64,000 bases of DNA from an uncultured Bacteroidales bacterium. Lineage in GTDB: Bacteria > Bacteroidota > Bacteroidia > Bacteroidales > Paludibacteraceae. Location: NCBI GenBank assembly GCA_900319105.1, contig ONND01000010.1, forward strand, positions 18,195 to 82,194, given 5' to 3'. Each line of letters begins with the position of its first letter. The stretch's first letter is position 1. Made by a program: the position numbers and the translations under genes. The notes below the pieces were generated by a model that was given only the letters and a program-made list of their open reading frames with translations, made no database searches and was not told where the DNA came from. This document shows positions 12,285 to 55,835 of the stretch, in pieces.

Positions 12285-13553
12285 TTAGTCTCTTCTGAAA
12301 ATATCGCGGGTGTACACTTTGGCGGCAACGTCGTCAAGGACGGGGTCGTAACGATTGGCGATGATGGCTTGGCTGCGGCTCTTGAAGGCGGCAAGATCGT
12401 TCACTACGAGAGAGCCGAAGAAGGTTGAGTTGTCCGGCAGAGTGGGCTCGTAGATGATGACTTGCGCACCTTTCGCTTTCACGCGCTTCATGATGCCTTG
12501 GATGGAGGACTGACGAAAATTGTCGCTGTTCGATTTCATCGTCAGGCGATAGACGCCGATAACACAAGGATGCTCCTCGGCGGCGTTGAACTGACCGTTA
12601 TGGTAGTAGTCATAGTAGCCTGCTTTCGCCAGAACGCGGTCGGCGATGAAATCCTTACGGGTTCGGTTGCTCTCCACGATTGCTTCGATGAGGTTCTCCG
12701 GCACGTCCTGATAGTTCGCCAGCAGTTGCTTGGTATCTTTCGGCAGGCAGTAGCCGCCATAACCGAACGACGGGTTGTTGTAGTGCGTTCCGATACGCGG
12801 GTCGAGGCACACGCCGTCAATGATGTCCTGCGTGTTCAGACCTTTCATCTCCGCGTAGGTGTCGAGCTCGTTGAAGTAGCTCACGCGCAACGCCAGATAG
12901 GTGTTGGCAAACAACTTGACCGCTTCGGCTTCGGTAGTGCCCATGATACGCACCTCTATGTCCTGCTTGATAGCACCTTCTTTGAGCAGCATAGCGAATC
13001 GTTCCGCTGCGGCTGTCAAGGTGGGATCGCTGAGGCTCGTACCGACGATGATACGAGAGGGGTAGAGGTTGTCGTACAGCGCTTTGCTCTCGCGCAGGAA
13101 CTCCGGCGAGAAAAGGATGTGCTCGCAGTTGTATTTCTTGCGAACGGACTCGGTGTAGCCGACGGGAATGGTGGACTTGATGACCATGATCGCTTGCGGG
13201 TTGACGCGGAGGACGGTCTCAATGACGTTCTCCACTGCCGAAGTGTCAAAATAATTCCGCTGGCTGTCGTAGTTCGTCGGTGCGGCTATAACGACATACT
13301 CCGCATCCTTGTACGCCGCCTCGGCATCCACTGTCGCCGTGAGGTCCAAAAAACTCCCTTGTCCCTTGTCCCTTGTCTCTTTGTCCTTTTCGAGGTATTT
13401 CTCGATATACTCGTCTTGGATGGGCGAACGGCGGGAGTTGATCATCTCCACTTTCTCGGGGATGATGTCCACCGCCGTCACCTTATTATGCTGGGCGAGT
13501 AGGGTTGCGATACTCAACCCTACGTAACCCGTTCCTGCTACTGCAATCTTCAT
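12285..13553 (-). CDS. ugd: UDP-glucose 6-dehydrogenase
   Basis: The 422-residue protein oxidises UDP-glucose to UDP-glucuronate for the surface polysaccharide. It has the NAD-binding GTGYVGLS (7-14), the central STIPVGYTE segment and the catalytic-cysteine motif [11 protein letters not shown] (Cys near 266), followed by the C-terminal UDP-binding domain. Length is normal. An unusual stretch [14 protein letters not shown] near residues 55-68 is encoded by a heptameric direct repeat (13356-13390), so a repeat array has been accepted in frame in a surface loop. It follows the shorter paralogue at 13556 with 2 nt between them. Confidence 0.93.
13356..13390. repeat. Heptamer array inside ugd
   Basis: Three identical CCCTTGT units are followed by CTCTTTG and TCCTTTT. 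All keep a strict 7-bp period and are translated on the minus strand as part of [11 protein letters not shown]. Confidence 0.85.
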
Positions 13554-13555
13554 GA

Positions 13556-14311
13556 TTAAATTTTTTCTTCGAATCCACGGAAGTGGACATTGAGTTCATG
13601 TAAGTGTTCCAACAGTGTTCCTAAAGAGGTACCTTCTGTCATTTTTGCGAAAGCATTCACGTCTTTCGGGAAACACTTGCCGCCGTAGCCGTACTTGCCG
13701 TCCGGACCCGGTACATACGTGTGCGTGTCGTTGATATAACCCGACAGCAGTATACCCGTGTGTACTTTGCGCCAGTCGGCACCCATCTTCTCGCAGTACT
13801 CCTTGCAGGCATTGAAATACGTCACTTTGTACGCGCCGAACACATTGTGCATGTATTTGGTCAACTCTGCTTCCAACGGACTCATTACCGTAAATTTCTT
13901 GCCCACGAAGATTTTTGTCAGCAGGTCCTGTGCGCCTGTGAAGACCATCGTCTGTTTGTTGAAGTCCTCGATGAACGTGCGTTCGGTCAGGAACTCGGGC
14001 ATGTAATACACGTTGTGACCCGTCTCTTTGGTTAACATCGCACTCGAGCCCGGCAGGATAGTCGTGCGCACGAAGACCGGTACGTCCGGCAGGTTCTTAA
14101 TCAACTCTTTCATCAGCCGCAAGTCCTGCGTGCCGTCTTCTTCCGTCGGTACGTGAATCTGCAGAAACGCGATGTCGATGTCGCTCAGATCATCATTGTA
14201 ACCCTTGTATGGGTCACTAATAAAAAGTTTGCACTCAGGGTTGTTGTTCTCCAACCAGTTTTTGAGGGCTCCTCCCACGAAGCCGCATCCGATAATTCCA
14301 ACTTTAATCAT
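13556..14311 (-). CDS. Short UDP-glucose/GDP-mannose dehydrogenase-family protein lacking the C-terminal domain
   Basis: The 251-residue product begins [14 protein letters not shown], a Rossmann NAD site. It keeps the central dimerisation helices ([18 protein letters not shown]) and a catalytic-cysteine-like motif [15 protein letters not shown] near 208-222. It stops soon after and so lacks the C-terminal UDP-binding domain of the 422-residue ugd product next door. It is the first gene behind the operon promoter. It may be a compact dehydrogenase with a different sugar substrate or a regulatory or partner subunit. The intact cysteine motif argues against simple decay. Confidence 0.75.
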
Positions 14312-14442
14312 TTTTTTTATTGTTTTTTGTTATTGATATCTCCTTAATTGTCTTTTTGTCTTTACTCTGTCAGGCGTAGCCGGTCTGTCAGCGTTAGCGG
14401 TCTTTACTCTGTCAGCGCAGCGGTCTTCCTACAAAAAGCCTG
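14312..14442 (-). other. Leader of the polysaccharide operon with repeated GC-rich units
   Basis: About 130 nt separate the promoter -7 box from the first start codon. The leader contains three related units (CTGTCAGGCGTAGCCGGT at 14367, CTGTCAGCGTTAGCGGTC at 14385, CTGTCAGCGCAGCGGTC at 14409). An A/T-rich stretch just before the ATG follows. No riboswitch was recognised. Confidence 0.5.
14367..14430. repeat. Three-copy CTGTCAGCGnAGCGGTC repeat in an operon leader
   Basis: Units begin at 14367, 14385 and 14409 and share CTGTCAG(C)G..AGC(C)GGTC, partly followed by TTTACT. They resemble the GCGCAGCGGTCTTT units seen over signal-peptide codons near 36.7 and 43.9 kb, suggesting one dispersed family. 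Confidence 0.65.
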
Positions 14443-14473
14443 CAAAGATACAAAAAATATTTTATATACGCAA
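14443..14473 (-). promoter_or_regulatory. Bacteroidota-type promoter for the polysaccharide-ftsY-aspA operon
   Basis: On the minus strand TTG (14473-14471) is followed after exactly 20 nt by TATCTTTG (14450-14443), matching the -33/-7 consensus of the Bacteroidota primary sigma factor. No comparable promoter was seen inside the twelve tightly spaced downstream genes. Confidence 0.85.
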
Positions 14474-14598
14474 GTGCGCGCGCGTTTTTTTATAAAAAAG
14501 TGATTTTTCTTCTCTTTTTTAATCCAAAAATACCATCAAAAACAGTATATATACATAGTATATATACTATATTGTATTTAAAAGTTAAAAACTATAAT

Positions 14599-14651
14599 TT
14601 AGTGCGTGATTAGTGCGTGATAAGTGCGTGATAAGTGCGTCATTAGTACGA
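14599..14651. repeat. 11-bp tandem iterons upstream of the DUF2723 gene promoter
   Basis: Units TTAGTGCGTGA (14599), TTAGTGCGTGA (14610), TAAGTGCGTGA (14621), TAAGTGCGTCA (14632) and a degenerate TTAGTACGA (14643) repeat about once per helical turn, ending 40 bp before the -33 box. They could be a same-face protein binding array. Confidence 0.8.
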
Positions 14652-14691
14652 AATTATAGGTAGAATATAAGTGTATTTTCTTGCTTATCAT

Positions 14692-14722
14692 TTGTGTATA
14701 TCATTTTTTTTTTGTACCTTTG
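14692..14722 (+). promoter_or_regulatory. Bacteroidota-type promoter for the DUF2723-cobW-pnuC operon
   Basis: TTG at 14692-14694 and TACCTTTG at 14715-14722 are separated by 20 nt containing an A/T-rich spacer. The first gene starts at 14807. Confidence 0.88.
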
Positions 14723-14806
14723 CGCCGATTTTGCCCTAATCCGGCCTAATCATGCCTGAAGCGGCCTGTTGATATACCGCAAATAAAACAAAAAATAACA
14801 ATAAAA

Positions 14807-17800
14807 ATGAAACAATTTAAACTTTGGAATACGCTTTGCGGATGGGTGGTATTTGCCATCGCAGCGGCAACGTATCTCCTTACGATGGAGCCCACCGCTT
14901 CCTTCTGGGATTGCGGCGAGTTCATCTCCAGCGCCTGGAAATTGGACGTTGGACACCCGCCCGGAGCACCGTTCTTCATGCTCATGGGCCATTTCTTTAG
15001 TCTGTTTGCGTCTGACACAGCGCACGTAGCCATGTGCGTGAATGCGCTGTCAGCACTCGCGAGTGCGTTCACGATCCTCTTCCTTTTCTGGACGATCACA
15101 GCGCTGGCGAGGAAGTTAGTAAAACCCCTCCCGACCTCCACACAAGGGGAGGAGAAGAATTCGCTGTGGGCGGATTTGGGCATTCTCGGAGCAGGGACAG
15201 TAGGTGCGCTGGCATACACGTTCAGCGACACGTTCTGGTTCTCCGCCGTCGAGGGTGAGGTGTATGCCTCGTCGTCGCTCTTCACCGCCGTCGTGTTCTG
15301 GCTCATCCTCAAATGGGACGAACAGGCGGACGAGGAAGGATCGGACAAGTGGCTTATCCTTATCATGTACCTCATGGGCCTCAGTATTGGTGTCCACCTG
15401 CTGAACTTGCTGACCATCCCTGCCATCGGACTCGTTTATTACTTCCGTAAATACGAATTCAGCTGGAAGGGACTTATCTATGCGTTCCTCGCTTCGTGTG
15501 CGGTTCTGCTGGTTATCCTGTATGGTATCATTCCGGGCGTACCTACCTTGATCGGTTGGTTCGAACTGGCGTTCGTCAACGGCCTCGGTTGTCCGTTCAA
15601 TACGGGTCTCGCGGTGTCGATCGTGCTCATCGTCGGTTTCCTGGTGTGGGCTATATGGTACACGCGCAAGAAAGAGTGGCGCTGGGCGAACACGGCAGCA
15701 ATCATGGTGGCGATGATCCTTATCGGTTACAGTTCGTACGCTGCACTCGTCATCCGTTCGAATGCGGACACTCCGATGGACCAGAACAGCCCGGATAATG
15801 TGTTCTCCCTCAAGTACTACCTCAACCGCGAGCAGTACGGCGACCGTCCGCTTTTCTACGGACAGACCTACAACGCGCCCGTAGAACTGGAGATCAAGGG
15901 TAATATGTGCATCCCGGTGGAGAACATAGGCCATGCGCAGTACGCTCCGGCTCCGAAAGTGGAGGGCGAGAAAGACCATTACGTCGTAACCGGACATAAG
16001 ACCAGCTACAAATTTATGCCGCAGTTCTGCATGCTCTTCCCGCGTATGTATTCGTCGCAGGGCAGCCATGTGCAGGCTTACAAAGAGTGGGCGAACGTCA
16101 AAGGCAAACGCGTCAAATATGACTATTGCGGTCAGACCAAGACGGACTACTGCCCGACTTTCGGCGAGAACCTGCGTTTCTTCTTCCGCTACCAGGTGAA
16201 CTTCATGTACTGGCGCTATTTCATGTGGAATTTCGTTGGTCGTCAGAATGACCTGCAGTCGTACGGCGAGATCACCAAGGGTAATTGGATCTCGGGTATT
16301 CCGTTCATCGATAACGCCATGCTTGGCGATCAGGACCTGCTGCCGACCGAACTGAAGGAGAATAAGGGCCATAACGTCTATTATTTCCTGCCGTTGCTGC
16401 TCGGCCTCATCGGTATTGTATGGCAAGTGTCGAAGCGTGACAAGGACGGCAAGGCAGAGGGTTGGAAGAACTTCACCCTGACGTTCCTGCTGTTCTTCCT
16501 CACGGGTCTGGCGATCGTGATGTACCTCAACCAGACGCCTTACCAGCCGCGTGAACGAGACTACGCGTATGCAGGTTCGTTCTATGCGTTCTGTATCTGG
16601 ATCGGTCTGGGCGTTTTGGCATTGATTGATTGGATCAATGGACAATGGACAAAGGACAAAGGACAATGGATTAAAAATACCATAGCTGTTGTTGTTTCTG
16701 TTGTTTGCCTCGGAGTGCCGGCGCTGATGGCATCGCAGAACTGGGACGATCACGACCGCTCGCAGCGGTACTCCTGCCGTGACTTCGGCGCGAACTACCT
16801 CAAGTCCTGCGAGTCGCAAGCGATCCTCTTCTCCAACGGCGATAACGATACCTTCCCCCTCTGGTACAATCAGGAAGTAGAGGAGGTCGGCACGGATATC
16901 CGTGTATGTAACCTCTCGTACCTGCAGACCGATTGGTATATCTCGCAGATGAAGCGTCCGTACTACGAATCCAAAGCACTTCCTATCTCCTGGGAGTACA
17001 AGGATTTCATGCCGGGTAAGAATGAGATCGCCCGCGTCGATAACCGTCTTGGTCAGCCCATCAGCGTAGAGAAAGCCTTCAACTTCCTCTGCTCGGAGGA
17101 CTCCCGAACGAAGACCCGCGAAGGCGATAACTACATCCCCTCCGACCAACTCTATATCGAGACGCCGGCCGGCGAACAGATACTCTTTAAAAAGAAGCGC
17201 ATGTACACGCGCTCGGAGATGATGATCATGGAGATGCTCTCTACCAATAAATGGCAGCGACCCATCTATTTCTGCGCGACCGTGGGTAATGACTATTACC
17301 TCGGCCTTGAGCCCTACATGGAACTCACAGGCCTCGCTTATCAGATCACTCCGACCCGTAGCCGCGACGGACAGCCGCGCGTCAACACGGAGAAGATGTA
17401 CGATAACATGATGCATAAGTTCCAGTTCGGTAACATGAACATCCCGGGTATCTATATCGACGAGAACCTGATGCGTATGTGCCGCACCCATCGTATGATG
17501 TTTGCCCAGCTCGCGGAACAACTGCTGCGCGAGAACCAACGCGACAAAGCGCTCGAAGTACTCGACTATGCCGAGGAACAACTGCCGGGCTATAACATCT
17601 CCTACGACTATACTTCGGCGTCTATGGCTTCGATGTATTTCGCACTGGGTGAGAAAGAGAAAGCCGAAGCAATCATGGAGAAGGTGGCGCAGAGCTGCGT
17701 TGAGTACCTGCGTTTTGCTGCCTCCCTCAATCGCGCGCAGAAGCGTTCGCTTGAGTCCTCCACAGGCCGTGAGGCGGCTATCCTCGGATACGTGCTGCAG

Positions 17801-17872
17801 TCCTGCGAACGCAACGGCGCGAACGACATCGTTGATAAATACTATCAGGACTATGCGACGTACGCTAAATAA
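14807..17872 (+). CDS. DUF2723 membrane glycosyltransferase (GT117, protein O-mannosyltransferase-like)
   Basis: The 1021-residue protein begins with the DUF2723 hallmark: LTMEPTASFWDCGEFISSAWKL near residues 25-46, then HPPGAPFFMLMGHFF. About ten or more membrane helices follow in the first 650 residues, then a soluble C-terminal region with TPR-like helices. The family is typical of Bacteroidota and is believed to transfer sugars from a lipid donor to exported proteins. Two repeat insertions are translated in frame: a palindromic CCTCCC/GGGAGG unit giving KPLPTSTQGEEKN near 105-117, and a heptamer array giving NGQWTKDKGQWIKN near 610-623. It is the first gene of a plus-strand operon. Confidence 0.9.
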   Translation: MKQFKLWNTLCGWVVFAIAAATYLLTMEPTASFWDCGEFISSAWKLDVGHPPGAPFFMLMGHFFSLFASDTAHVAMCVNALSALASAFTILFLFWTITALARKLVKPLPTSTQGEEKNSLWADLGILGAGTVGALAYTFSDTFWFSAVEGEVYASSSLFTAVVFWLILKWDEQADEEGSDKWLILIMYLMGLSIGVHLLNLLTIPAIGLVYYFRKYEFSWKGLIYAFLASCAVLLVILYGIIPGVPTLIGWFELAFVNGLGCPFNTGLAVSIVLIVGFLVWAIWYTRKKEWRWANTAAIMVAMILIGYSSYAALVIRSNADTPMDQNSPDNVFSLKYYLNREQYGDRPLFYGQTYNAPVELEIKGNMCIPVENIGHAQYAPAPKVEGEKDHYVVTGHKTSYKFMPQFCMLFPRMYSSQGSHVQAYKEWANVKGKRVKYDYCGQTKTDYCPTFGENLRFFFRYQVNFMYWRYFMWNFVGRQNDLQSYGEITKGNWISGIPFIDNAMLGDQDLLPTELKENKGHNVYYFLPLLLGLIGIVWQVSKRDKDGKAEGWKNFTLTFLLFFLTGLAIVMYLNQTPYQPRERDYAYAGSFYAFCIWIGLGVLALIDWINGQWTKDKGQWIKNTIAVVVSVVCLGVPALMASQNWDDHDRSQRYSCRDFGANYLKSCESQAILFSNGDNDTFPLWYNQEVEEVGTDIRVCNLSYLQTDWYISQMKRPYYESKALPISWEYKDFMPGKNEIARVDNRLGQPISVEKAFNFLCSEDSRTKTREGDNYIPSDQLYIETPAGEQILFKKKRMYTRSEMMIMEMLSTNKWQRPIYFCATVGNDYYLGLEPYMELTGLAYQITPTRSRDGQPRVNTEKMYDNMMHKFQFGNMNIPGIYIDENLMRMCRTHRMMFAQLAEQLLRENQRDKALEVLDYAEEQLPGYNISYDYTSASMASMYFALGEKEKAEAIMEKVAQSCVEYLRFAASLNRAQKRSLESSTGREAAILGYVLQSCERNGANDIVDKYYQDYATYAK
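15123..15154. repeat. Palindromic CCTCCCGACC...GGGGAGG unit inside the DUF2723 gene
   Basis: ACCCCTCCCGACCTCC followed by AAGGGGAGGAG forms an inverted repeat that is read in frame as PLPTSTQGEE. A related unit is inside the DUF1015 gene at 52386-52419. Confidence 0.7.
16636..16670. repeat. Heptamer array inside the DUF2723 gene
   Basis: Five consecutive 7-bp units read CAATGGA, CAATGGA, CAAAGGA, CAAAGGA, CAATGGA. They are translated as part of GQWTKDKGQW, in a loop between membrane segments. Confidence 0.9.
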
Positions 17873-17892
17873 CAAACAACAAACTACAAATG
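17872..17892. repeat. Short heptamer array over the cobW start codon
   Basis: ACAAACA, ACAAACT and ACAAATG follow one another at 17872-17892. The ATG of the next gene (17890) is the end of the third unit. Confidence 0.6.
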
Positions 17893-20789: not shown

Positions 20790-21461
20790 ATGACCCCCAT
20801 GGTAAATAGTAAGTGGTTTGGCTATTCGTTTCTGGCGTTCGGCTTGCTGATTCAGGTCGTAACATACCTCATCTCGAATTCCCTCAACCCCTATTCGCTC
20901 ATTCATCTCTCGCTCATCAGCGGCTGTCTGGGCGTTTTCTCGGTCGTACTCACGGCACAGGGAAATATATGGATGTACCTCTTTGGCTTTGCGCAGGTAA
21001 TCACCTATACCATCCTCTGTTTCCAGCAGCGTTTCTATGCCGAGATAGCCATCAATGCCTATTATTTCCTGACGATGGTTTATGGCGTGTATGCTTGGCG
21101 TAAACGCCTGAACGCCGACGCTTCTACTATCTCTCCGCGCAACCTCACATGGAAGGCCGTAGTGCTCATCGCCGTTGCTACGGTCATCGGCGCATGGCTG
21201 GTAGGATGGGGATTAGCGGCGTGGACAGATGATACGCAGCCTTACCTGGATGCCTATACAACAGTACCTGCACTTGTGGCGCAGGTACTGATGATTCTTG
21301 TCTATCGCGAGCATTGGTTCATATGGCTCGCCGTGGATCTGTTTAGTGTCGTTCTATGGCTTCGTGCCGGTGATTATTGTCTGGCAGCGTTGTACGCTTT
21401 CTGGTGTTTGAACTGCCTCTACGGCCTTTACCGCTGGAAATCCCTAACCACTAACCCCTAA
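20790..21461 (+). CDS. pnuC: PnuC-family nicotinamide riboside/mononucleotide transporter
   Basis: The 223-residue membrane protein has seven or so hydrophobic helices. It carries the PnuC signature GNIWMYLFGFAQVITYTILCF and the downstream AEIAINAYYFLTMVYGVYAW, which form the substrate pore. The family imports nicotinamide riboside or related vitamins by facilitated diffusion, to be trapped by a kinase. Its ATG begins directly after the previous stop codon. The last codons (SLTTNP, stop) are made of a CTAACCA-type heptamer repeat, so the C-terminal tail is repeat-derived. Confidence 0.88.
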   Translation: MTPMVNSKWFGYSFLAFGLLIQVVTYLISNSLNPYSLIHLSLISGCLGVFSVVLTAQGNIWMYLFGFAQVITYTILCFQQRFYAEIAINAYYFLTMVYGVYAWRKRLNADASTISPRNLTWKAVVLIAVATVIGAWLVGWGLAAWTDDTQPYLDAYTTVPALVAQVLMILVYREHWFIWLAVDLFSVVLWLRAGDYCLAALYAFWCLNCLYGLYRWKSLTTNP

Positions 21462-21526
21462 CCGTACACCATACACCGTACACCGTACACCGTACACCGT
21501 ACACCGTACACCGTACACCATACACC
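21442..21526. repeat. Heptamer arrays at the pnuC/DUF4837 convergent junction
   Basis: CTAACCA-type units at the end of pnuC pass into about ten CCGTACA/CCATACA units from 21463. The whole 65-bp gap between the convergent genes is this array. Confidence 0.92.
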
Positions 21527-22564
21527 TTACTCCTTCTCATTCGGCATCTTCAGGGTATAGAGGATCGCCTCCATCTGGCGCATGGCATTGCGTTTCTTCT
21601 GACCTGCAGCGTAGAGGAACGCCTCGGCGGTCACTATGCGGCCGTTCACTTGATCCAGTCTCGTCAGGCTGACGAAAGGACCACCCATCGCTTCTCCGTT
21701 CATAATCTTCCATAGGCCGCGTGTCTCCATCGCATAGAAACCGCCTACTGTGTCCCGCAACGCCGCTACACTACGCGTCACAGGCGGGAAATGCTTGTAC
21801 TCCGTGCCCATATAACTGCCCTCCACTTGTGCGGTCACCAGCTTGCCCATCACCGTATTACGCATCGCGATAATAGAGTCGTTGCTGAACTGTTCCTGCG
21901 CCGTGTACGGGTAACTATAGACCACTACATCCTTGCGCATCGGACCTTTGTTGTTGCAGCACCACAGGACATTTACCATTTTGCCATTTACCATGTTGTC
22001 ATTTACTTTCAGAGTGGTATCCATAATGAGCATGTAGTCCTCAGGAATCAATATATCATAGCCCTGTTTGTTAAGTATCGCACGCGCGTCCTTATTCGTA
22101 TTCGCGCGATAGAAGCGGATCTGACGGGCTAACTCTTCCTGTACAAACCACTCGCGGATGCGTCCGCCGTTCGTCTGCCAGTACGCTAATAAATCCTCCT
22201 CACTCGGCGCCTGAATACGGATCATCGCCTGAGGTTTGGACCATACATCACGCGATTTGGTGGTCTTCACCTGAGTGTATTTATGCTCGTTGATATCAAT
22301 AAGCAGGATATTACGCGAAGCCTTGAAGAGGTCATCGAACTGATTGACAGGCACATGCGAGGTCGTAAAGGTCGCTTCCATCTGGGGCAGGCCATACATG
22401 TCAGCACGCATCGTGTCGCAAAGGGCTTTCGATACACTCGACGGACTCACCACGATGCACTCGTAGATAGACCCCGTGGCGGAAGTTAACAAACGATCGG
22501 TGCTCTTTCCGCAACCCATCATTACCAGCGCTAATAGCGAAATAAAGATACTCTTTTTCATCAT
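21527..22564 (-). CDS. DUF4837-family lipoprotein
   Basis: The 345-residue protein has a lipoprotein signal (LALVMMGC) and the DUF4837 features: a PQMEATFTTSHVPVNQFDDLFKASRNIL core and the closing FYAMETRGLWKIMNGEAMGGPFVS segment. The family is confined to Bacteroidota and its function is unknown. A heptamer array (21970-22006) is translated as KVNDNMVNGKMVNV, where the family would have a shorter loop. It has its own promoter, divergent from the AraC-type gene. Confidence 0.85.
   Translation of the reverse strand: MMKKSIFISLLALVMMGCGKSTDRLLTSATGSIYECIVVSPSSVSKALCDTMRADMYGLPQMEATFTTSHVPVNQFDDLFKASRNILLIDINEHKYTQVKTTKSRDVWSKPQAMIRIQAPSEEDLLAYWQTNGGRIREWFVQEELARQIRFYRANTNKDARAILNKQGYDILIPEDYMLIMDTTLKVNDNMVNGKMVNVLWCCNNKGPMRKDVVVYSYPYTAQEQFSNDSIIAMRNTVMGKLVTAQVEGSYMGTEYKHFPPVTRSVAALRDTVGGFYAMETRGLWKIMNGEAMGGPFVSLTRLDQVNGRIVTAEAFLYAAGQKKRNAMRQMEAILYTLKMPNEKE
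21970..22006. repeat. Heptamer array inside the DUF4837 gene
   Basis: CATTTAC, CATTTTG, CATTTAC, CATGTTG and CATTTAC units occur with single-base spacers after the second and fourth units. They are read in frame as VNDNMVNGKMVN. Confidence 0.75.
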
Positions 22565-23602: not shown

Positions 23603-23603
23603 A

Positions 23604-23741
23604 TGTACAATTTACAATGTACAATTTACAATGTACAAAGGGGTCTTGGGGTTTGGTACAAGGTTTTAAGATACGTACTTTCTATCAAGTTAGTACCAAA
23701 GTCACCAGAACGCTTTATTAATTGTTAATTATTAATTGTTA
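23604..23741 (+). repeat. Composite dispersed repeat, copy A (heptamer array - core - heptamer array)
   Basis: Five TGTACAA/TTTACAA units (23604-23638) are followed by a 75-bp core (23639-23713). The core contains TTTTAAGATACGTACTTTCT and ends CCAAAGTCACCAGAACGCT. ATTGTTA/ATTATTA units follow (23714-23741). The same three-part structure occurs on the other strand at 46650-46782. Within the core TTTGGTAC (23653-23660 region) and GTACCAAA form an inverted repeat. It lies between convergent genes and shows no ORF. Confidence 0.88.
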
Positions 23742-23749
23742 ATTTCTTT

Positions 23750-25728: not shown

Positions 25729-26924
25729 TGAATATGACTCCTATTTTTCAAAACTACCTCACTCAAAACGACATCAACGGCTATCTGACTGCCCTGCATA
25801 AAGAAGCCGAAAACGGAGATGCCGGTTCACTACGAATCTTACTCTACCTATCCGTAATGGTATCCGAGGTGGAGGATGCGATGGACTACGTCGATAAACT
25901 CATGAATATCGAAGACGACTATGTCTTTGCCGTATGGCCATATCTGTCCGCCGCCATCAACGAACTGAACGAGGAGCTCGGTACGTGTGACGACGACGAG
26001 AAGTACAAATACGCCCTCGGGGCGAAGTTCAAGACTGCCCTCAACACCGGCGACATGGAGTATGAGAAAGAGCATCCCGATTTCAAGTCCCCCTTCCGGC
26101 TCTTTGGCGACAAAATCATTATTTTGCAGCGCGCGTACCTTAATCATGTAGGCAAGCAGACCTATCCCGTGATAGACGACAGCGTGGCGATGAAGCCCTG
26201 CGCGCCGAAGGAGAAGATTGACTACTGGTACAGCCTGTACCGCCGTAGTGACTGCTCGGCAAACCAGGAGACTATTTATAACGACGCCAAACCTTATGCC
26301 GAGCAGGGTGACCCCGATGCGATGCTTGTAGTAGGTTACCTGCTCGCCCACGGCATAGAGACCAAATACGACAGCCCGCGCGTTATTATCCTTCGCGCCA
26401 ACCCGAATTTTGCGCTGCCATTCCTCCGCCGCGCCGCAGACGCCGGACGACCGCTCGCCTGCTCCGAGACGGCTTTCATCCTATATGACCAAGCCAAAGA
26501 GCATCCCGAATACAGAGAACTCGCGGACCAATATCTGGAGAAAGGTGCTTCCTTGAAAGACAAGAACTCACTCCTCAAACTCTTCAACTACTATGAGGAC
26601 AAAGACGATGCCAAAGCTTTTGCGTACCTCGTTCCCCTCGCCGAAGTGTATGACACGCATGAGTACGACCTTGAGCTCGCCTATTGGTACGAGAAAGGCC
26701 GCGGCTGCGAGAAGGACGAGAAGAAGGCCTTCGAGCTCGTCGAATATGTATGGAAGAACTCCTCCGCCAGCCCTTACGACAGCAGTCAGGAGGATTCCGT
26801 CAGTATGCTCTGCCGCTATCTGCGCGAAGGTATCGGATGCGAGAAAGACCCTGAGCGCGCAGAAAAAATCGCCCGTTGGTACCAAGATGACGAAGACCGG
26901 ATGTTGGAAATGCTAACCAGGTAA
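25728..26924 (+). CDS. Sel1/TPR-like repeat protein
   Basis: The 398-residue protein contains Sel1-like repeats, most clearly YAEQGDPDAMLVVGYLLAHG (about 185-204), ALPFLRRAADAGRPLA, and YDLELAYWYEKGRGCEKDEKKAFELV followed by LCRYLREGIGCEKDPERAEKIA. Sel1 repeats are alpha-solenoid protein-interaction modules. No signal peptide is seen, so it is probably cytoplasmic. A second in-frame ATG six bases downstream is an equally possible start. It belongs to the 25.2-30.9 kb cluster of little-characterised genes. Confidence 0.75.
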   Translation: MNMTPIFQNYLTQNDINGYLTALHKEAENGDAGSLRILLYLSVMVSEVEDAMDYVDKLMNIEDDYVFAVWPYLSAAINELNEELGTCDDDEKYKYALGAKFKTALNTGDMEYEKEHPDFKSPFRLFGDKIIILQRAYLNHVGKQTYPVIDDSVAMKPCAPKEKIDYWYSLYRRSDCSANQETIYNDAKPYAEQGDPDAMLVVGYLLAHGIETKYDSPRVIILRANPNFALPFLRRAADAGRPLACSETAFILYDQAKEHPEYRELADQYLEKGASLKDKNSLLKLFNYYEDKDDAKAFAYLVPLAEVYDTHEYDLELAYWYEKGRGCEKDEKKAFELVEYVWKNSSASPYDSSQEDSVSMLCRYLREGIGCEKDPERAEKIARWYQDDEDRMLEMLTR

Positions 26925-26943
26925 TTGAGAATTGAGAATTATG
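26923..26943. repeat. Three AATTGAG-type heptamers over a stop/start junction
   Basis: AATTGAG, AATTGAG and AATTATG fill the 16-bp gap. The last unit contains the next start codon (ATG at 26941). Confidence 0.7.
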
Positions 26944-27398: not shown

Positions 27399-27433
27399 GT
27401 GAAAAATGAAAAGTGAAAAATGAAAAAACGAAA
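27399..27433. repeat. GTGAAAA/ATGAAAA heptamer array
   Basis: GTGAAAA, ATGAAAA, GTGAAAA, ATGAAAA and AACGAAA fill most of the gap before the secreted-protein gene. The array offers spurious GTG/ATG codons, but the functional start is 27443. Confidence 0.8.
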
Positions 27434-27442
27434 GGCATAGTT

Positions 27443-30492: not shown

Positions 30493-30534
30493 CTTTCATC
30501 TTTAGACTTTAAACTTTCAACTTTCAACTATCAT
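30493..30534. repeat. CTTTCAA-type heptamer array abutting a start codon
   Basis: CTTTCAT, CTTTAGA, CTTTAAA, CTTTCAA, CTTTCAA and CTATCAT end immediately before the ATG at 30535, leaving no room for a conventional ribosome-binding site. Confidence 0.88.
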
Positions 30535-33769: not shown

Positions 33770-34663
33770 TTATATTTTGATTTTAAATTTACGATTGACG
33801 GGCCGTACGCGGTACCCGGCTTTACGGAGTTGCTCAATCAGCCCTTTGTCTCCGCCAATATAGATGGCGTTGAGGGTGATGAAGGCTCCGCCTTTGGCGA
33901 TGTGTGGCGCAAGGCGTTTGACCCATTGTTCATTGCGCTGACAAAAGACCTTGTAATCCGAGAAGGAGATCGACGAGGTGTTATTCGGTCCTTCTACCTG
34001 GAAGGCTATATCGGTGAGTTGTCCATTGCGGTACAGATCGCGAATAGCGCGTTCCTGCTTGACCTCGTTCTCGGGGTACTCCATGACCTTGAGCAGCTCC
34101 TTGCATTGCCAGTGGAAAGGCTCGCGGTCAAAGAGCATATACATTGTCTCGCCGATATTATCCAGTCCGATGACGGGAATATTCCTCTCGGCTGCTACCT
34201 GCTCGAAGAAAGTCTCCATCGATCGCTGCTCGTTATAGTGCAACCAAATCTTCATCAATTCGGTTCGATAGAGCTCCGTGAGGTACGAGGGTTTCATGCG
34301 GCATAGTTGTTCAAAAGTCATGCCCAGAGTAACGCGAAGGCTGTTGTCGATAAACGTATACTCCTTTTCGCTATAGAAATTGCTCAGTTTAACAGAGTCG
34401 GGCAGGAGAGCAGCTTTGCGCAATGCAGCGATTGCTTCGTAGTCCTGCATCGCAAATTCCGTGACTACTTTTTTGCACTTCCCGAAGCACTTGAATACAT
34501 TCGGAATGGTGTCTAAAAAACTCATATCCACGTACCGGTTTGTCGCCAGAAGATACGATTTGCCCTTACTGGACTTGCCGCTGATCTCGTAGAGAACCTG
34601 AGCGGATGTACAAAGGTACAAAGTACAAAGTACAAAGGTTACTATGTATCGGAAGGGTCTCAT
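33770..34663 (-). CDS. TraB/GumN-family-like secreted protein with altered first motif
   Basis: The 297-residue exported protein has the TraB/GumN layout: an N-terminal SYLLATNRYVDMSFLDTIPNVFKCF element, a helical middle and the closing AFITLNAIYIGGDKGLIEQLRKAGYRVRPV. In typical members the first motif is GTxH; here it reads ATNR, so the conserved histidine is missing and any metal-dependent activity is doubtful. The signal peptide codons (IVTFVLCTLYLCTSA) are partly a GTACAAA heptamer array. The start overlaps the upstream TPR gene by 4 nt (ATGA). Confidence 0.7.
   Translation of the reverse strand: MRPFRYIVTFVLCTLYLCTSAQVLYEISGKSSKGKSYLLATNRYVDMSFLDTIPNVFKCFGKCKKVVTEFAMQDYEAIAALRKAALLPDSVKLSNFYSEKEYTFIDNSLRVTLGMTFEQLCRMKPSYLTELYRTELMKIWLHYNEQRSMETFFEQVAAERNIPVIGLDNIGETMYMLFDREPFHWQCKELLKVMEYPENEVKQERAIRDLYRNGQLTDIAFQVEGPNNTSSISFSDYKVFCQRNEQWVKRLAPHIAKGGAFITLNAIYIGGDKGLIEQLRKAGYRVRPVNRKFKIKI
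34608..34636. repeat. GTACAAA heptamer array in a signal-peptide coding region
   Basis: Four GTACAAA units, with one extra G after the first, encode the LCTLYLCT core of the TraB/GumN-like signal peptide on the minus strand. Confidence 0.85.
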
Positions 34664-40083: not shown

Positions 40084-40118
40084 CCACTAACCATTAACCA
40101 CTAACCGCTAACCCCTAA
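40084..40118. repeat. CCACTAA heptamer array between rarA and hemW
   Basis: CCACTAA, CCATTAA, CCACTAA, CCGCTAA and CCCCTAA. The rarA stop codon (minus strand, 40117-40115) is inside the array. Confidence 0.92.
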
Positions 40119-42947: not shown

Positions 42948-42956
42948 TTCTTAAAA

Positions 42957-43009
42957 CTTTAAACTTTCAACTTTCCTACTTCTTTCAACTCTCAACTTTC
43001 AACTTACTT
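42957..43009. repeat. CTTTCAA heptamer array between porD-like gene and recN
   Basis: CTTTAAA, CTTTCAA, CTTTCCT, a 4-nt interruption, CTTTCAA, CTCTCAA, CTTTCAA and CTTACTT. The stop codon of the upstream gene (minus strand, 43006-43004) falls in the last unit. Confidence 0.9.
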
Positions 43010-43927
43010 TGTAATTCGCTCGTAGGTCTGTTGCCTTGTCGGGTCGATGTCCATTAGGATGTCATAAACTTCTTTCTTCTCTTTGTCCGTTCCTTTGCAG
43101 AAGATATCCACGAGTTCCTCTGCTTTGGCGTCGAGGAAGGTATTGATGACGTAGGTAGCCGGACGCGAACGGTAGGCCTCCTTGAGAACCGGCAGGCCTT
43201 CCGCAATGCGCGCGCGACCGTTCGTGACGTTCGCGCTCATCTCGTCCAGACCCAGGCGATGATACTCGTAGTAGAAATTACGGTATTTCTTGAAGGCCTC
43301 GTCCAGGAGGTTATTGATCAGCGCATAGCGGTTTCTGTTGCTCTCAAATGCCAGCCATCCTTTCTGCTCTGTACTTTCCATGGACGAACTCTGGCAGGTC
43401 TGACAGATCAACTCGCATTGCTGGAAATAGGGCGTGCCGCTCAGGCGCTGGTAACTGTCCTGGTCATGCCCGATGATGAGATAAACATAGTACGCTAACA
43501 TCGCCGTCAGGTTCGTCGTGAAGGTATTCTGCTGATACTCGATGCGGTCGTATTCCTCGTAGTGAAAATTGAACGCATTATCCTTGAAGTTCAGCAATGT
43601 GGTGGTGTAGGTCGTGCCATAGACCGGACGACGGCTCTGTAGCGTCATCTCGCATTTGAACATATGATCCACGCTGAGCTCTTTGACCACAATGAGCATA
43701 CTACATTCAATACGCTCTTTCTCGGCGTAGGTCATGTTGGTCCAGCGATTATCGTTCATGTAGCTCTCGATGGACGATTTGAGGGTCTCGAAGATCTGCT
43801 TGTTTGATCCGTCTATCTGATCCGAGTTGATGCTCACCGTACAGCGTAACTCTTGAGCCTTTAGAGAACTAAAGACCGCTGCGCTCAAGGACAAAAGTCC
43901 CAATACTATAATCTTAAAACTTTTCAC
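43004..43927 (-). CDS. DUF4835 family protein, PorD-like (type IX secretion associated)
   Basis: The product (about 307 residues) has a signal peptide and the DUF4835 pattern: ELRCTVSINSDQIDGSNKQIFETL at the mature N-terminus, RRPVYGTTYTTTLLNFKDNAF, YYVYLIIGHDQDSYQRLSGTPYFQ and NRNRYALINNLLDEAF. DUF4835 proteins are annotated as PorD of the type IX secretion system and are often near recN. No ATG exists at the 5' end: GTG at 43927 (MKSFKIIVLGLLSLS) is preferred, while a TTG at 43936 lies inside a heptamer array. The signal peptide also overlaps an AAAGACCGCTGCGCTCAAGG repeat. Confidence 0.8.
   Translation of the reverse strand: MKSFKIIVLGLLSLSAAVFSSLKAQELRCTVSINSDQIDGSNKQIFETLKSSIESYMNDNRWTNMTYAEKERIECSMLIVVKELSVDHMFKCEMTLQSRRPVYGTTYTTTLLNFKDNAFNFHYEEYDRIEYQQNTFTTNLTAMLAYYVYLIIGHDQDSYQRLSGTPYFQQCELICQTCQSSSMESTEQKGWLAFESNRNRYALINNLLDEAFKKYRNFYYEYHRLGLDEMSANVTNGRARIAEGLPVLKEAYRSRPATYVINTFLDAKAEELVDIFCKGTDKEKKEVYDILMDIDPTRQQTYERITK
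43871..43895. repeat. AAAGACCGCTGCGCTCAAGGACAAA unit in the PorD-like signal peptide
   Basis: This GC-rich unit is read on the minus strand as LLSLSAAVF. It is closely similar to the unit at 33157-33177, which lies at the same position in another signal peptide (LLSLSEALF). Confidence 0.7.
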
Positions 43928-43929
43928 TT

Positions 43930-43974
43930 CTTTCAACTTTCAACTTCTTTCAACTTTCAACTTTCAACTATTTA
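43930..43974. repeat. CTTTCAA heptamer array between DUF4831 and porD-like genes
   Basis: Two CTTTCAA units, a 3-nt CTT interruption, then three CTTTCAA and CTATTTA. It contains the stop codon of the DUF4831 gene (minus strand, 43970-43968) and precedes the GTG start of the next gene. Confidence 0.9.
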
Positions 43975-45005: not shown

Positions 45006-45028
45006 ATCATTTATTCTTTATCATTTAA

Positions 45029-45080
45029 CCACTAACCACTAATCCACTAACCACTAATCCACTAACCACTAATCCACTAA
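45029..45080. repeat. CCACTAA heptamer array between aroE and DUF4831 genes
   Basis: Seven CCACTAA units are arranged as three pairs plus one, each pair followed by an extra T, giving a 15-bp super-repeat. The aroE stop codon (minus strand, 45071-45069) lies inside. Confidence 0.93.
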
Positions 45081-45791
45081 CCCATTCCAAATCTTCCATG
45101 CGGCTTTGGCCTGACCGTAGAGCATCTCCATTCCGTTTTGGATAGTAGCTCCTTGCGCCTTGCCCTTGTGGAGGAACAGGGTCTCTTCGGGATTGTAGAT
45201 ACAATCAAACAGCAAATGTTGTGCCGTAATAAACGCGTAGGGTATATCCGGACAGGCATCAACCTCGGGAAACATTCCCAAAGGCGTACAGTTGACGATG
45301 AGAGTATGATCCTTCATGATGTCTTCCGTCAGGTCTTTATAACCGAGCATGCAGGCTTGAGGTGTGCGGCTGACGAGGGTAGGGATGACCCCTAATTTGC
45401 GAAGCCCGTAGCACACGGCTTTCGAAGCGCCTCCTGTTCCGAGCACCAAAGCCTTTCTGTCATCGGCACGCAGCAAAGGACGGATTGATTCGATAAAACC
45501 TAAACAGTCCGTGTTATAGCCCACATGTTTATGTACCACATTCACCGCGCCGATTGCCTCGGCGGTCTCATCCAGACGATCCAAGTACGGAATGATGGCC
45601 TGCTTGTAGGGAATCGTTACATTCATTCCGTCCAGATAGTTGAGCAATTCGTTCACTCGTTCAGCCGTTAACTCCTTTAGGGGGTACAAAGAGTATTCGG
45701 CATCAATGCCTGATGTCGTAAATTTCTCGTTGAAGTATTTCGCCGAGAAGGACTGTACCAACGGATATCCGATTATACCGAAGTGACGCAT
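45069..45791 (-). CDS. aroE: Shikimate dehydrogenase
   Basis: The 240-residue enzyme reduces 3-dehydroshikimate with NADPH in aromatic amino acid synthesis. It has GYPLVQSFSAKYFNE at the substrate site (SxS-type serines), NVTIPYK near 58-64 with the catalytic lysine, and the nucleotide loop GTGGASKAV near 117-125. A C-terminal NGMEMLYGQA segment is also present. It is slightly shorter than E. coli AroE, which is usual for Bacteroidota. It overlaps tilS by 19 nt. The last residues GLVD and the stop are encoded by the heptamer array. Confidence 0.93.
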   Translation of the reverse strand: MRHFGIIGYPLVQSFSAKYFNEKFTTSGIDAEYSLYPLKELTAERVNELLNYLDGMNVTIPYKQAIIPYLDRLDETAEAIGAVNVVHKHVGYNTDCLGFIESIRPLLRADDRKALVLGTGGASKAVCYGLRKLGVIPTLVSRTPQACMLGYKDLTEDIMKDHTLIVNCTPLGMFPEVDACPDIPYAFITAQHLLFDCIYNPEETLFLHKGKAQGATIQNGMEMLYGQAKAAWKIWNGLVD

Positions 45792-46651: not shown

Positions 46652-46782
46652 TTGTCAATTAAAAATTAATAATTAATAAAGCGTCCTGGTGACTTTGGTG
46701 CTGATTTGATAGAAAGTACGTATCTTAAAAGTCCGTACTTACTCCAAGAGCCCTTTGTACATTGTAAATTGTACATTGTACA
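46650..46782 (-). repeat. Composite dispersed repeat, copy B
   Basis: Read on the minus strand it is TGTACAA/TTTACAA units (46782-46755), a ~74-bp core (46754-46681) and ATTAATT-type units (46677-46650). The core matches copy A (23639-23713) at most positions, including an uninterrupted TTTTAAGATACGTACTTTCT followed by ATCAA. The element spans the whole ettA-tilS gap and supplies the tilS start region. Confidence 0.88.
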
Positions 46783-46784
46783 TT

Positions 46785-48461: not shown

Positions 48462-48464
48462 AAA

Positions 48465-48485
48465 CTTTCAACTTTCAACTTTCAA
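48465..48485. repeat. CTTTCAA heptamer array between folA and ettA
   Basis: Three perfect CTTTCAA units plus CTTCTTT. The folA stop codon and its last codons (KEVES) are inside the array. Confidence 0.9.
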
Positions 48486-48972
48486 CTTCTTTCACGTATT
48501 CTGCGAACGTGAAAGCATAGGGGTTATTCTCGTCTGCCTCGTGCTTTTCGGCGCTCAGCAGTTTCCATTCGGTCTCTTTGATCTCCGGAAAGAACGTGTC
48601 GGCATCCTCCCAAGAATGATGGATATGCGTGATATACAGTTTGTCCGCGCGCTCCATCATCTGGCGATACACCATCCCGCCGCCAATGACGAAGGCTTCT
48701 TCTTCGCCTGCCACTTTGGCGCATAGTTCATCAAGCGAGTATGCCACTTCTGCGCCTTCAAAAGTCTTGCCCGGAACGTCCGTCAAGACGATATTACGCC
48801 TATTAGGCAGCGGATGCTTGGGTAGCGAGAAGAACGTCCTCTCGCCCATCATCACGGTCTTGCCGCTGGTGATCTCTTTGAAATGTTTCAAATCCGCCGG
48901 CATGTGACACAACAGGTCACCTTTCTTGCCGATCGCGTAGTTCTCTGCGATCGCTACTATAATAGAAATCAT
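48475..48972 (-). CDS. folA: Dihydrofolate reductase
   Basis: The 165-residue enzyme reduces dihydrofolate with NADPH. It has [19 protein letters not shown] at the N-terminus, [24 protein letters not shown] (NADPH and folate site) and [13 protein letters not shown]. The usual LPW before the ADLKHF helix reads LLCHMP here. It overlaps thyA by 4 nt, the common thyA-folA pairing: ThyA makes dihydrofolate, which FolA recycles. The C-terminal KEVES is heptamer-derived. Confidence 0.95.
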
Positions 48973-54899: not shown

Positions 54900-54936
54900 A
54901 CGCGTTATTTTTTTAGAGTTAGTTCCAAATCCGCTG

Positions 54937-54967
54937 CAAAGGTACAACAAAAATTGCACATATGCAA
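54937..54967 (-). promoter_or_regulatory. Promoter for the secreted-protein gene (in repeat copy 2)
   Basis: On the minus strand TTG (54967-54965), 20 nt, TACCTTTG (54944-54937), identical to the copy at 53550-53580. Confidence 0.85.
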
Positions 54968-55158: not shown

Positions 55159-55255
55159 TTTTTTTGACATGTGCAAACATTCAGGCATTTTTTCGTCCAA
55201 TAAAATAAAATTTTATCTATAGTAAGGCGGATAAACCTTTCCATTTTTCCCTTTT
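55159..55255. other. A/T-rich non-coding segment
   Basis: About 100 bp between repeat copy 2 and the 77-bp tandem repeat. No gene, promoter or strong inverted repeat was recognised here. Confidence 0.5.
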
Positions 55256-55429
55256 GTCGCATTATTGCGGCAACCATTTTCCCCTCCGTCCATTTTACGG
55301 CAATTAGATTGCCGTTCTCTCTGTGCATTTTTGTCGCATTATTGCGGCAACCATTTTCCCCTCCGTCCATTTTACGGCAATTAGATTGCCGTTCTCTCTG
55401 TGCATTTTTGTCGCATCATTGCGACAACC
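55256..55429. repeat. 77-bp tandem repeat with two hairpins per unit
   Basis: Units start at 55256, 55333 and 55410 (the last partial). Each has TTGTCGC-ATTATT-GCGGCAA and ACGGCAAT-TAG-ATTGCCGT stems. The third copy of the first stem reads TTGTCGC-ATCATT-GCGACAA, restoring perfect pairing. The 77-bp period is not a codon multiple, so this is not coding. Confidence 0.9.
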
Positions 55430-55430
55430 A

Positions 55431-55497
55431 CACCCGCCTTTTTGAGGCCCTCCCTCCAACACCCGCCTTTTTGAGGCCCTCTCTCCAACACCCGCCT
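55431..55497. repeat. 29-bp tandem repeat (CACCCGCCTTTTTGAGGCCC type)
   Basis: Units begin at 55431, 55460 and 55489 (partial) with no spacers, directly left of the large hairpin at 55498. Confidence 0.88.
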
Positions 55498-55593
55498 TGT
55501 CGTATGTGCTCCGGCAAAAACATTCTTTTGCGGATGGGGAACGCAAAAGCATGAGTGGGGGGCACCACGTTTTTTGCGGAGCAGCATACGACA
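55498..55593. other. Large imperfect hairpin with nested perfect hairpin
   Basis: Outer arms: TGTCGTATG, GCTCC and GCAAAAAC (55498-55521) pair with GTTTTTTGC, GGAGC and CATACGACA (55569-55593) with small bulges. Inside is CTTTTGCG (55525-55532) with CGCAAAAG (55542-55549). No ORF. It sits between two 29-bp repeat arrays. Confidence 0.85.
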
Positions 55594-55607
55594 CACCATC
55601 ACAAATA

Positions 55608-55692
55608 CATCAGCCAAAGGCTTTAGAGCCTCAAAACATCAGCCATCGTCTTCCGAGCCTCAAAACATCCAAAGGCTCCCGAGCCTCAAAAC
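55608..55692. repeat. Second 29-bp tandem repeat (CATCAGCC...GAGCCTCAAAA type)
   Basis: Units begin at 55608, 55637 and 55666 (third unit 26 bp). The GAGCCTCAAAA end is roughly the reverse complement of TTTTTGAGGCCCTC in the left array, so the two arrays face each other across the hairpin. Confidence 0.85.
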
Positions 55693-55756
55693 AGCAACCC
55701 CCTTGTCCCTATTCCTGCCTATCCCTGCATAAAAAGGCCTATTTTTGCAAATAAAT

Positions 55757-55787
55757 TTGCGTATATCAAAAATTTTTCGTACCTTTG
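55757..55787 (+). promoter_or_regulatory. Promoter for the Sel1/restriction-modification operon
   Basis: TTG at 55757-55759, 20 nt, TACCTTTG at 55780-55787. The downstream leader is an AAATGGT array and the first ATG is at 55837. Confidence 0.88.
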
Positions 55788-55800
55788 CACCGCAAAAAAT

Positions 55801-55835
55801 AAATGGTAAATGGTAAATGACAAAATAGTAAATAA
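55801..55835. repeat. AAATGGT heptamer array in the operon leader
   Basis: AAATGGT, AAATGGT, AAATGAC, AAAATAG and TAAATAA fill the leader between promoter and start codon. Confidence 0.8.

Follow-up and report, generated by a model that had tools for sequence, protein, structure and literature searches.

Arrays of short direct repeats with a step of about 7 bp recur in the window (the whole 64,000-nt stretch of DNA analyzed), and their sequence varies between sites and between species. This pattern suggests a copying error that favors one step length, not a coded signal. The arrays were probably left by a mutational process acting throughout the genome, in which a strand realigns about 7 nt away. 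The source genome is a draft Bacteroidales genome of 2,257,794 bases, 91% complete and close to rumen Paludibacteraceae, in which a 16S search found none. The window itself has zero Rfam matches at the gathering score.

Period spectrum of the arrays

Runs of 10 or more exact self-matches number 15 at lag 7 in the window and 0 at each of lags 2 to 6 and 8, with a mean of 0.0 lag-7 runs in 10 first-order Markov shuffles. A larger sample, consisting of the window and 40 stretches (802,552 bases, 36% of the genome), contains 125 arrays of period 7, compared with 2, 17, and 10 at periods 6, 8, and 9, the periods that the initial annotation had set against it, and 0 at period 5. Longer periods gave 3 (10 bp), 27 (11 bp), 3 (12 bp), and 11 (15 bp) arrays; the commonest period within 5 to 11 nt is thus 7, followed by 11. 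One order-2 Markov shuffle of the sample yielded 0 arrays at period 7 and a single array overall (period 13). Tandem Repeats Finder (minimum score 30) placed a period-7 row at 19/19 of the coordinates at which arrays had been named from the sequence, and it added rows absent from that first list at 21444-21463, 33173-33191, 45005-45027, 46657-46679, and 46755-46784. The period had been described as strict. Its dominance is borne out, but its strictness is not, given the 8-bp arrays, a mixed 7/8 array at 45026-45082, and the 11-bp second class.

Close relatives show the same period-7 pattern, with 72 exact lag-7 runs in 396 kb and 36 in 310 kb against 0 and 3 at period 6, although inherited arrays are counted repeatedly here because the stretches are partly the same locus. 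Five further genomes were picked because they carry AAAGTTG arrays. Array densities of 618, 212, and 114 per Mb in G290, G286, and G156 are biased upward, since many stretches were placed on AAAGTTG hits; 140 kb of G245, sampled away from the listed hits, contain 7 arrays of period 7 and 6 of period 9. AAAGTTG control counts are uninformative because AAAGTTG read backwards is a rotation of itself. At 84 to 87% EttA identity, 20 runs fall at lag 11 and 4 at lag 7, and in G002 the 8-bp arrays (7) outnumber the 7-bp arrays (4). Beyond close relatives, the dominance of 7 is not clear.

The genomes compared are drafts, mostly metagenome-assembled genomes (MAGs), which would favor an assembly artefact as the source of the arrays. 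However, the arrays reappear at orthologous places in independently named assemblies, and the shuffles, with 0 period-7 arrays, speak against chance; it is extremely improbable that either accounts for them.

Arrays in the window and at orthologous sites

The arrays of the window are as follows.

13355..13386, minus strand: TCCCTTG array (sense CAAGGGA), within a called gene
16631..16670, plus strand: TGGACAA/AGGACAA array, in the loop between two hydrophobic stretches of a TMEM260-like protein (gene 14807-17872)
17867..17890, plus strand: AAACAAC array across the stop of 14807-17872, reaching the next start at 17890
21444..21535, no strand: CTAACCA/CTAACCC passing into CCGTACA, about 13 units, over the stops of two convergent genes; the longest array of the window
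23616..23737, plus strand: composite palindromic element (model R1) with a left heptamer arm, a core, and an inverted right heptamer arm, taking in most of the TGTACAA and ATTGTTA arrays (23603-23638, 23715-23744)
26923..26940, plus strand: AATTGAG array, 3' end of 25728-26924
27399..27427, plus strand: TGAAAAA/TGAAAAG array, 5' end of 27413-29881
30500..30533, plus strand: CTTTCAA/CTTTAAA array, just 5' of the start at 30535
31366..31399, minus strand: AGCCAAC (sense) array, linker of the amidase-like gene 30859-33213
31720..31755, minus strand: second AGCCAAC array of the same amidase-like gene
34608..34637, no strand: GTACAAA array near the 5' end of 33770-34663
36595..36630, minus strand: AGGACAA array near the 5' end of the TPR gene 34660-36774
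40084..40118, minus strand: TTAGTGG-type array between rarA-like and hemW-like genes
42950..43010, minus strand: AAAGTTG-type arrays between porD and recN
43930..43969, minus strand: AAAGTTG array between 43968-45005 and porD, with a 17-bp super-period (17-bp Tandem Repeats Finder row at 43918-43963)
45026..45082, minus strand: mixed 7- and 8-bp array (GGTTAGT/GGATTAGT) between an aroE-like gene and 43968-45005; the alternating steps appear as a 15-bp row in Tandem Repeats Finder
46657..46777, minus strand: second copy of the composite palindromic element, between ettA and the next gene; its TTGTACA arm array is 46755-46784
48463..48488, minus strand: AAAGTTG array containing the upstream gene's stop and ending at the ettA start codon
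55800..55819, no strand: TAAATGG array between open reading frames 54267-54959 and 55928-56287

Many arrays have imperfect units. Across the sample, 69/125 arrays are not within a called gene, many lie exactly between a stop and a start codon, and others occur within genes or close to their starts. At the 3' ends of genes, 22/26 arrays include a stop triplet in the gene sense (null, 0.47), a relation that is partly true by definition. The claim that arrays inside genes are free of stops is too broad: 15/35 arrays deep in genes have a stop triplet in one frame or another (null, 0.34), and therefore only in-frame stops are excluded there.

When array length and content were compared at orthologous junctions of relatives, as the initial annotation had proposed, heptamer, length, and presence were all found to vary. 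A period-7 array is present in at least 1 of 20 genomes (the window and 19 relatives) at 11/13 junctions and in 44/217 junction instances, with at most 5 distinct heptamers per junction; instances were kept if the upstream alignment stopped no more than 8 residues short of the end and the gap was -200 to 300. The relatives carry other heptamers at the same spot or have no array, and a tight stop/start overlap without an array is common. The rarA-like/hemW-like junction has a 2-nt gap in ten relatives and a 10-nt gap, with an extra 8-bp unit, in one, and a 42-bp equivalent of the ettA-start array is present in L052 and missing from its 95%-identical relative L056. Coding sites vary as well. The TMEM260-like loop has a period-7 or -8 array in 10/30 orthologs, with at least 6 different units, and other orthologs of the 16631..16670 site have none. 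Among the best 15 of 30 returned loci of the amidase-like gene, L213 and L215 have other heptamers in the linker at 31366..31399, and at 31720..31755 the window gene has 22 residues, compared with 11 to 15 in 12 of the other 14 orthologs. Different heptamers with the same period at orthologous junctions and in the loop support the earlier proposal of a shared generating process without selection for one sequence, as do the weak triplet preferences among the distinct heptamers (largest z of 3.8 for 32 triplets in each of three sets), which do not point to a shared sequence motif.

Origin of the arrays

The arrays most likely arise while DNA is being synthesized, by slipped-strand mispairing or by short tandem duplication. 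Many sequences could serve as the unit, and the step length, which may be set by the replication or repair machinery, would be the fixed part. Selection would act as a filter on places, and arrays would survive where an out-of-frame insertion does little harm, namely, around start and stop codons, close to where genes begin, and in loops of low conservation. After their birth, arrays would gain and lose units, decay by substitution, and sometimes be swapped between species by recombination.

Length differences show an excess of whole units. Gap differences are divisible by 7 in 15/32 same-heptamer pairs, 16/62 different-heptamer pairs, and 75/245 array-versus-compact pairs; the expectation is 1 in 7, and the pairs are not independent. 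In close pairs of genomes (the closest are 95% identical), clean single-gap differences inside arrays measure 7, 7, 7, 8, 42, 43, and 49 bp; copy number often shifts by whole units between relatives, and some arrays shift by split or messy gaps (2+20, 6+18, and 15+6 bp), of which only some sums are multiples of 7. At three coding sites, the net gain is roughly 8 residues; these 24 nt are not divisible by 7, and at one site the window gene shows this gain too but has no recognized array. Similarity between units falls with distance, from a mean of 0.88 mismatches between adjacent units (n=319) to 1.19 four apart (n=67) and 1.5 five apart (n=36). Loops of 7 nt escape MutS. MutS scored above the family cutoff in 38/41 genus genomes, including our own; therefore, its loss is not needed and was rejected as the cause.

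Not all of the data fit this process easily. The sampled 36% of the genome contains 60 different consensus heptamers. After removal of 15 arrays near the palindromic core, the remaining 110 arrays use 56 distinct heptamers, compared with 96 to 106 in 12 draws of a null matched for GC and stops but not for peptide constraints, and the commonest heptamer occurs in 9 arrays versus 2 to 4 in the null. The earlier description of the arrays as unrelated therefore does not hold for all of them, given this reuse and the four window arrays (within 23603-23744 and 46657-46784) that are arms of one element. Slippage alone does not explain heptamer reuse at unrelated sites. In addition, the lengths of coding-region arrays peak at 30 to 33 bp (31 to 33 bp in 19/35), and 42/91 ettA-region arrays of L051 to L069 measure 30 to 33 bp; this peak counts against simple slippage because simple slippage should give a falling distribution. 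Our own intergenic arrays lack the peak (13/69).

These features could be accounted for by copying between sites, in which template switching, ectopic gene conversion, or a mobile palindromic element would insert heptamer modules of about 30 bp from a genome-wide stock at permissive sites, and slippage would only edit them later. The reuse and the length mode argue for it, as do the ortholog L192, in which three sites of one gene have AGTCGAA-type units, and the composite element with its heptamer arms. A formal test for local seeds was negative, with a mean of 1.38 mismatches between the array heptamer and the array-less orthologous junction (n=24) and 1.21 for other junctions (n=240); it counts against slippage and therefore leaves room for copying. 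Two L212 arrays do have a unit-like seed, found by eye, in the array-less orthologs L215 and L213. The decay of unit similarity with distance speaks against copying, and heptamer identity within G000 (0.023) is about that with G002 (0.026; 4 arrays sampled). A genome-specific vocabulary was rejected on the same figures, with samples of 3 to 16 arrays from other genomes, which are too few. On balance, copying between sites is the less probable explanation, with perhaps a one-in-four standing, and its specific form, in which 30- to 33-bp modules from a lineage-specific stock are written into stop/start junctions and protein loops, is rather doubtful. If copying did occur, repeat DNA fixed mainly in its 7-nt step would keep rewriting gene ends and linker peptides, and the palindromic element would be one visible vehicle.

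The element is 122 bp long, is present in 13 copies in our genome, and is a dispersed palindrome whose model matches both strands (hairpin z of -2.2 to -4.6 for 4 folded copies). It adjoins 15/125 own array calls, and, given its 13 copies, these probably spread with it. Under strict filters, by which weak matches were lost, it was found in only 4/41 genus genomes, whereas the arrays are widespread, and it was rejected as the source of all arrays. Mobilization by a RAYT was likewise rejected, as the Y1 transposase (PF01797) gave no match over the cutoff in 8 genomes and two weak matches below it; telomerase-like or reverse-transcriptase templating was set aside because RVT_1 (PF00078), the one family searched, had zero matches in our 91% complete draft. 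Both results also weigh against copying.

In the element arms, AATnnA is kept at invariant positions every 7 bp in 15/15 aligned copies, and this conservation, together with the precise placement of many arrays between stop and start codons, would suit selected signals for translation coupling, termination, or protein binding that happen to consist of 7-bp units. Such signals are nevertheless quite unlikely as a general explanation, since sequence, length, and presence vary between orthologous junctions, array-less overlaps are common, and arrays without a common motif also lie in coding loops. A 7-bp unit does not preserve the reading frame, and arrays within genes or close to gene starts could in principle act as phase-variation (contingency) loci, in which unit gain or loss shifts the frame and switches genes. 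The many imperfect arrays and the 69/125 outside called genes make this very improbable. Slippage with a preferred 7-nt step has the best claim as the maker of the arrays.

Comparison with known heptamer repeats

The arrays keep their period with little constraint on sequence, and the same junctions and loops bear different arrays in many species of a single genus. Step length can therefore be separated from sequence, and the 7-nt step becomes measurable and its cause testable, which bears on why heptamers dominate bacterial repeats of 5 to 11 nt. That gene ends and linkers can consist of repeat DNA also has consequences for gene calling and for how C-terminal variation is interpreted in rumen metagenomes.

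Among long simple sequence repeats with units of 5 to 11 nt (Mrazek et al. 2007, as related in PMC4679880 and PMC4692102), heptanucleotides are the most abundant class in most genomes, phylogenetically scattered, and a 7-nt polymerase interaction is the proposed cause. The arrays described here likewise have 7 nt as the commonest step in this range, far above chance, but they belong to an uncultured rumen lineage, comprise 60 heptamers, and change heptamer between species at orthologous sites.

The heptamers of cyanobacteria are named short tandemly repeated repetitive (STRR) sequences. These and the GGGGA(C/T)T repeats of Nostoc (PMC4692102, available part) are, like our arrays, tandem heptamers that are often intergenic; one or a few sequences are described for them there, compared with many here, and GGGGATT and GGGGACT are missing from our list of 125 arrays. 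Xanthomonas has arrays of a single G-rich family, GGGAATC, most often of about four units, mostly at the same gene pairs in two species with varied length and sequence (PMC4692102, same part), whereas our arrays represent many families and GGGAATC is absent from them. The cyanobacterial parallel first drawn is of the right kind, although our heptamers match none of those spelled out for the compared systems in the available parts of these publications.

The composite element resembles REP and MITE-like elements in being short, dispersed, palindromic, and, in the copies read, mostly intergenic. REPs usually number more than 100 per genome (PMC2817692, available part), whereas the element has 13 copies, arms of 7-bp-phased heptamers, and no Y1 transposase over the cutoff. 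TAACTGA repeats occur in Beggiatoaceae, Cyanobacteria, and a few Bacteroidetes, including two sets in Paludibacter propionicigenes (PMC4679880). Arrays of the TAACTGA type make up 0/125 of our arrays, and one was found in G290. In both systems, direct repeats of heptamers lie close to start codons and Bacteroidetes are among the carriers; our genome differs in carrying many heptamer families.

Period 7 in the genome of the window

The window (G000:C16:18195-82194) belongs to a draft genome of 2.26 Mb in 30 contigs, and its EttA protein shares up to 99% identity with those of named MAGs (uncultured Bacteroidales, Paludibacteraceae), many of which are of ruminant rumen or gut origin. Its genes include those of the type IX secretion parts PorD and PorE, HemW, RecN, EttA, serine hydroxymethyltransferase, and a TMEM260-like protein. 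A Type IIG-like restriction-methyltransferase gene, followed by that of a specificity subunit, lies at 56296-59238, and tandem repeats of 77 bp and 29 bp lie upstream of these restriction-modification genes, at 55252-55693.

A short tandem array with a 7-bp unit (heptamer) was found at all 19 sites that the initial annotation had named. At lag 7, the window contains 15 runs of at least 10 exact self-matches, with none at lags 2 to 6 and 8 and a mean of 0.0 lag-7 runs in ten shuffles. Across 802,552 bases of the same genome, 125 arrays have period 7, followed by period 11 (27 arrays), 8 (17), 15 (11), 9 (10), 10 and 12 (3 each), 6 (2), and 5 (0); one shuffle of the sampled genome gave a single array, of period 13. 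Period 7 therefore dominates over periods 6, 8, and 9, but the strict 7-bp period originally claimed did not hold, since other periods occur. The period-11 arrays are the second commonest class, and 8 of the 27 lie between divergent genes.

Period-11 arrays in the window
14599-14647, period-11 array
39097-39124, period-11 array
39846-39875, period-11 array
59884-59934, period-11 array
62639-62679, period-11 array

Only 56 of the 125 period-7 arrays fall within a called gene, compared with 79% of randomly placed 35-bp pieces, and the remainder occupy gene ends or intergenic regions. Among the 56, 35 lie deep in the gene and 21 lie within 60 codons of a start; the placement of the latter is uncertain because gene calls begin at the first possible start codon, and their true position may be upstream of the start.

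Orthologous sites and spread among relatives

The gene order around ettA is mostly kept in 19 named relatives (L051 to L069), in which 8 to 14 window genes were recovered. When array length and content were compared at the same junctions, as the initial annotation had proposed, the relatives varied in both heptamer and presence: of the 13 junctions, 11 bear a period-7 array in some genomes, which makes 44 of the 217 junction instances, and a single junction can show as many as five heptamers. Another 11 instances carry an 8-bp array, and the others have stop and start codons that overlap or almost touch, or different spacers. At the junction from 48969 to 48475, 7 of 18 genomes have arrays, with five heptamers, and 9 have a gap of -1 nt. 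Gap differences were multiples of 7 in 15 of 32 same-heptamer pairs, 16 of 62 different-heptamer pairs, and, for an array paired with a compact junction, 75 of 245; the expected proportion is 1 in 7, and the pairs are not independent. A palindromic repeat of about 80 to 100 bp, other than the composite element described below, is present at some of these junctions in L051, L058, and L066. CCTCTCC...GGGAGGG-type palindromes occur in L055 and L069 at sites of the kind that heptamer arrays occupy, and one in the window (about 15120-15157) lies within a coding linker.

Arrays also vary inside genes. Of 30 orthologs of the TMEM260-like protein, 10 have an array in a loop flanked by two hydrophobic stretches, with the units TGGACAA, ATTAAAA, AAAGGTG, and AGTCGAA and two 8-bp units. 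One linker of an amidase-like gene contains AGCCAAC in the window and ATGACCA-type and CTCCAAT-type units in the orthologs L213 and L215. At three sites of this gene, the protein with the array exceeds most of its relatives in length by about 8 residues; at one of them, the window gene has an equal gain without a recognized array. For two sites of the ortholog L212, a single unit-like sequence was found by eye in an array-less ortholog (CAAACGA in L215 and TCACCCA in L213).

At the ettA start, an entire array of 42 bp separates the close pair L052 and L056 (95.2% identical). Between L061 and L063 (93.6% identical), a local alignment of about 16.7 kb contains four indels; both 7-bp indels are array units, and those of 2 and 20 bp constitute another array, present only in L063. 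The differences between L067 and L069 are 7 bp in one array and 8 bp in an array with an 8-bp unit; those between L054 and L055 amount to 49 bp and 43 bp, at two separate junctions. Other arrays contain messy gaps, such as 6 plus 18 bp (L052/L056) and 15 plus 6 bp (L054/L055). Downstream of ettA, L055 has an L053-like allele that its closest relative, L054, does not share, which suggests recombination between species.

Exact lag-7 runs numbered 72 in 396 kb of loci with EttA at least 95% identical, 36 in 310 kb at 87 to 90%, 4 in 160 kb at 84 to 87% (versus 20 at lag 11), and 11 in 529 kb below 84%; most of this sequence is a single locus in different genomes, and an inherited array therefore enters the counts repeatedly. 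Samples of 80 kb from five genus members had 3, 4, 16, 9, and 7 period-7 arrays and 1, 0, 1, 0, and 0 period-6 arrays, and in one of them (G002) period-8 arrays (7) outnumbered period-7 arrays (4). Of 295 Bacteroidales genomes from 183 genera, 20 have three consecutive AAAGTTG units, and these fall in 19 genera. Five of the genomes with AAAGTTG arrays were examined, among which G290 reached 618 and G286 212 period-7 arrays per Mb, some of them with other heptamers, although these densities are inflated because several stretches were placed on AAAGTTG matches. In 140 kb of G245, sampled away from the listed matches, 7 arrays had period 7 and 6 had period 9. Three stretches of G290 (L280 to L282; another family), picked on AAAGTTG matches, hold 23 period-7 arrays in 37 kb, one of them TAACTGA-type.

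A palindromic element with heptamer arms

Two copies of one element lie in the window, and the arrays at 23603-23744 and 46657-46784 form their arms.

Copies of the composite element in the window
23616-23737, 122-bp element with inverted heptamer arms
46657-46777, 122-bp element with inverted heptamer arms

Fifteen copies (12 from this genome and one each from L053, L060, and L064) align over about 122 bp. The left arm has AATnnA at every 7 bp, the core is an imperfect palindrome (AAAGGGCT...GTTTGGTAC...GTAC.AAA...CGCTTT), and the right arm is inverted. A model search with strict filters located the element in 4 of 41 genus genomes: this one has 13 copies, G046 has 5, and G015 and G034 each have a single copy in shortened form. 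All four copies that were folded were more stable than shuffles (z of -2.2 to -4.6). No Y1 transposase scored over the cutoff in the 8 genomes tested.

Origin of the arrays and relation to known repeats

The arrays are best explained by tandem slippage or duplication, which would proceed with a favored step of 7 nt. Mismatches between units rise from 0.88 for neighbors to 1.19 for units four apart, a trend that fits stepwise duplication. The formal test for seeds, however, was negative, with 1.38 mismatches at the array-less orthologous junction and 1.21 at other junctions. Arrays in coding sequence and around ettA have a length peak near 30 to 33 bp, which the intergenic arrays of this genome lack. 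MutS scored above the cutoff in 38 of 41 genus genomes, including this one.

Slippage from random local seeds does not by itself produce the observed reuse of heptamers: outside the palindromic element, 110 arrays share 56 heptamers, versus 96 to 106 in 12 GC- and stop-matched draws, in which peptide constraints were unmatched. Some heptamers may be more prone to slip or better tolerated; the alternative is that arrays are copied or homogenized between sites. A search of this draft, which is 91% complete, detected no RVT_1 reverse transcriptase, a result that speaks against an RNA-templated writer of arrays.

Searches of the CC-licensed PMC literature found nothing joining heptamer tandem repeats with Bacteroidales, or Paludibacteraceae with tandem repeats, and apparently nothing closer than PMC4679880 and PMC4692102. 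Heptanucleotides are already described as the commonest class of 5- to 11-nt repeats, and these two papers report a suggestion by Mrazek and colleagues that the length of 7 nt reflects the stretch contacted by the polymerase. What appears to be new, as we have not seen it in print, is the finding for this lineage that orthologous sites keep the period but not the sequence, and, likewise, that a palindrome carries heptamer arms.
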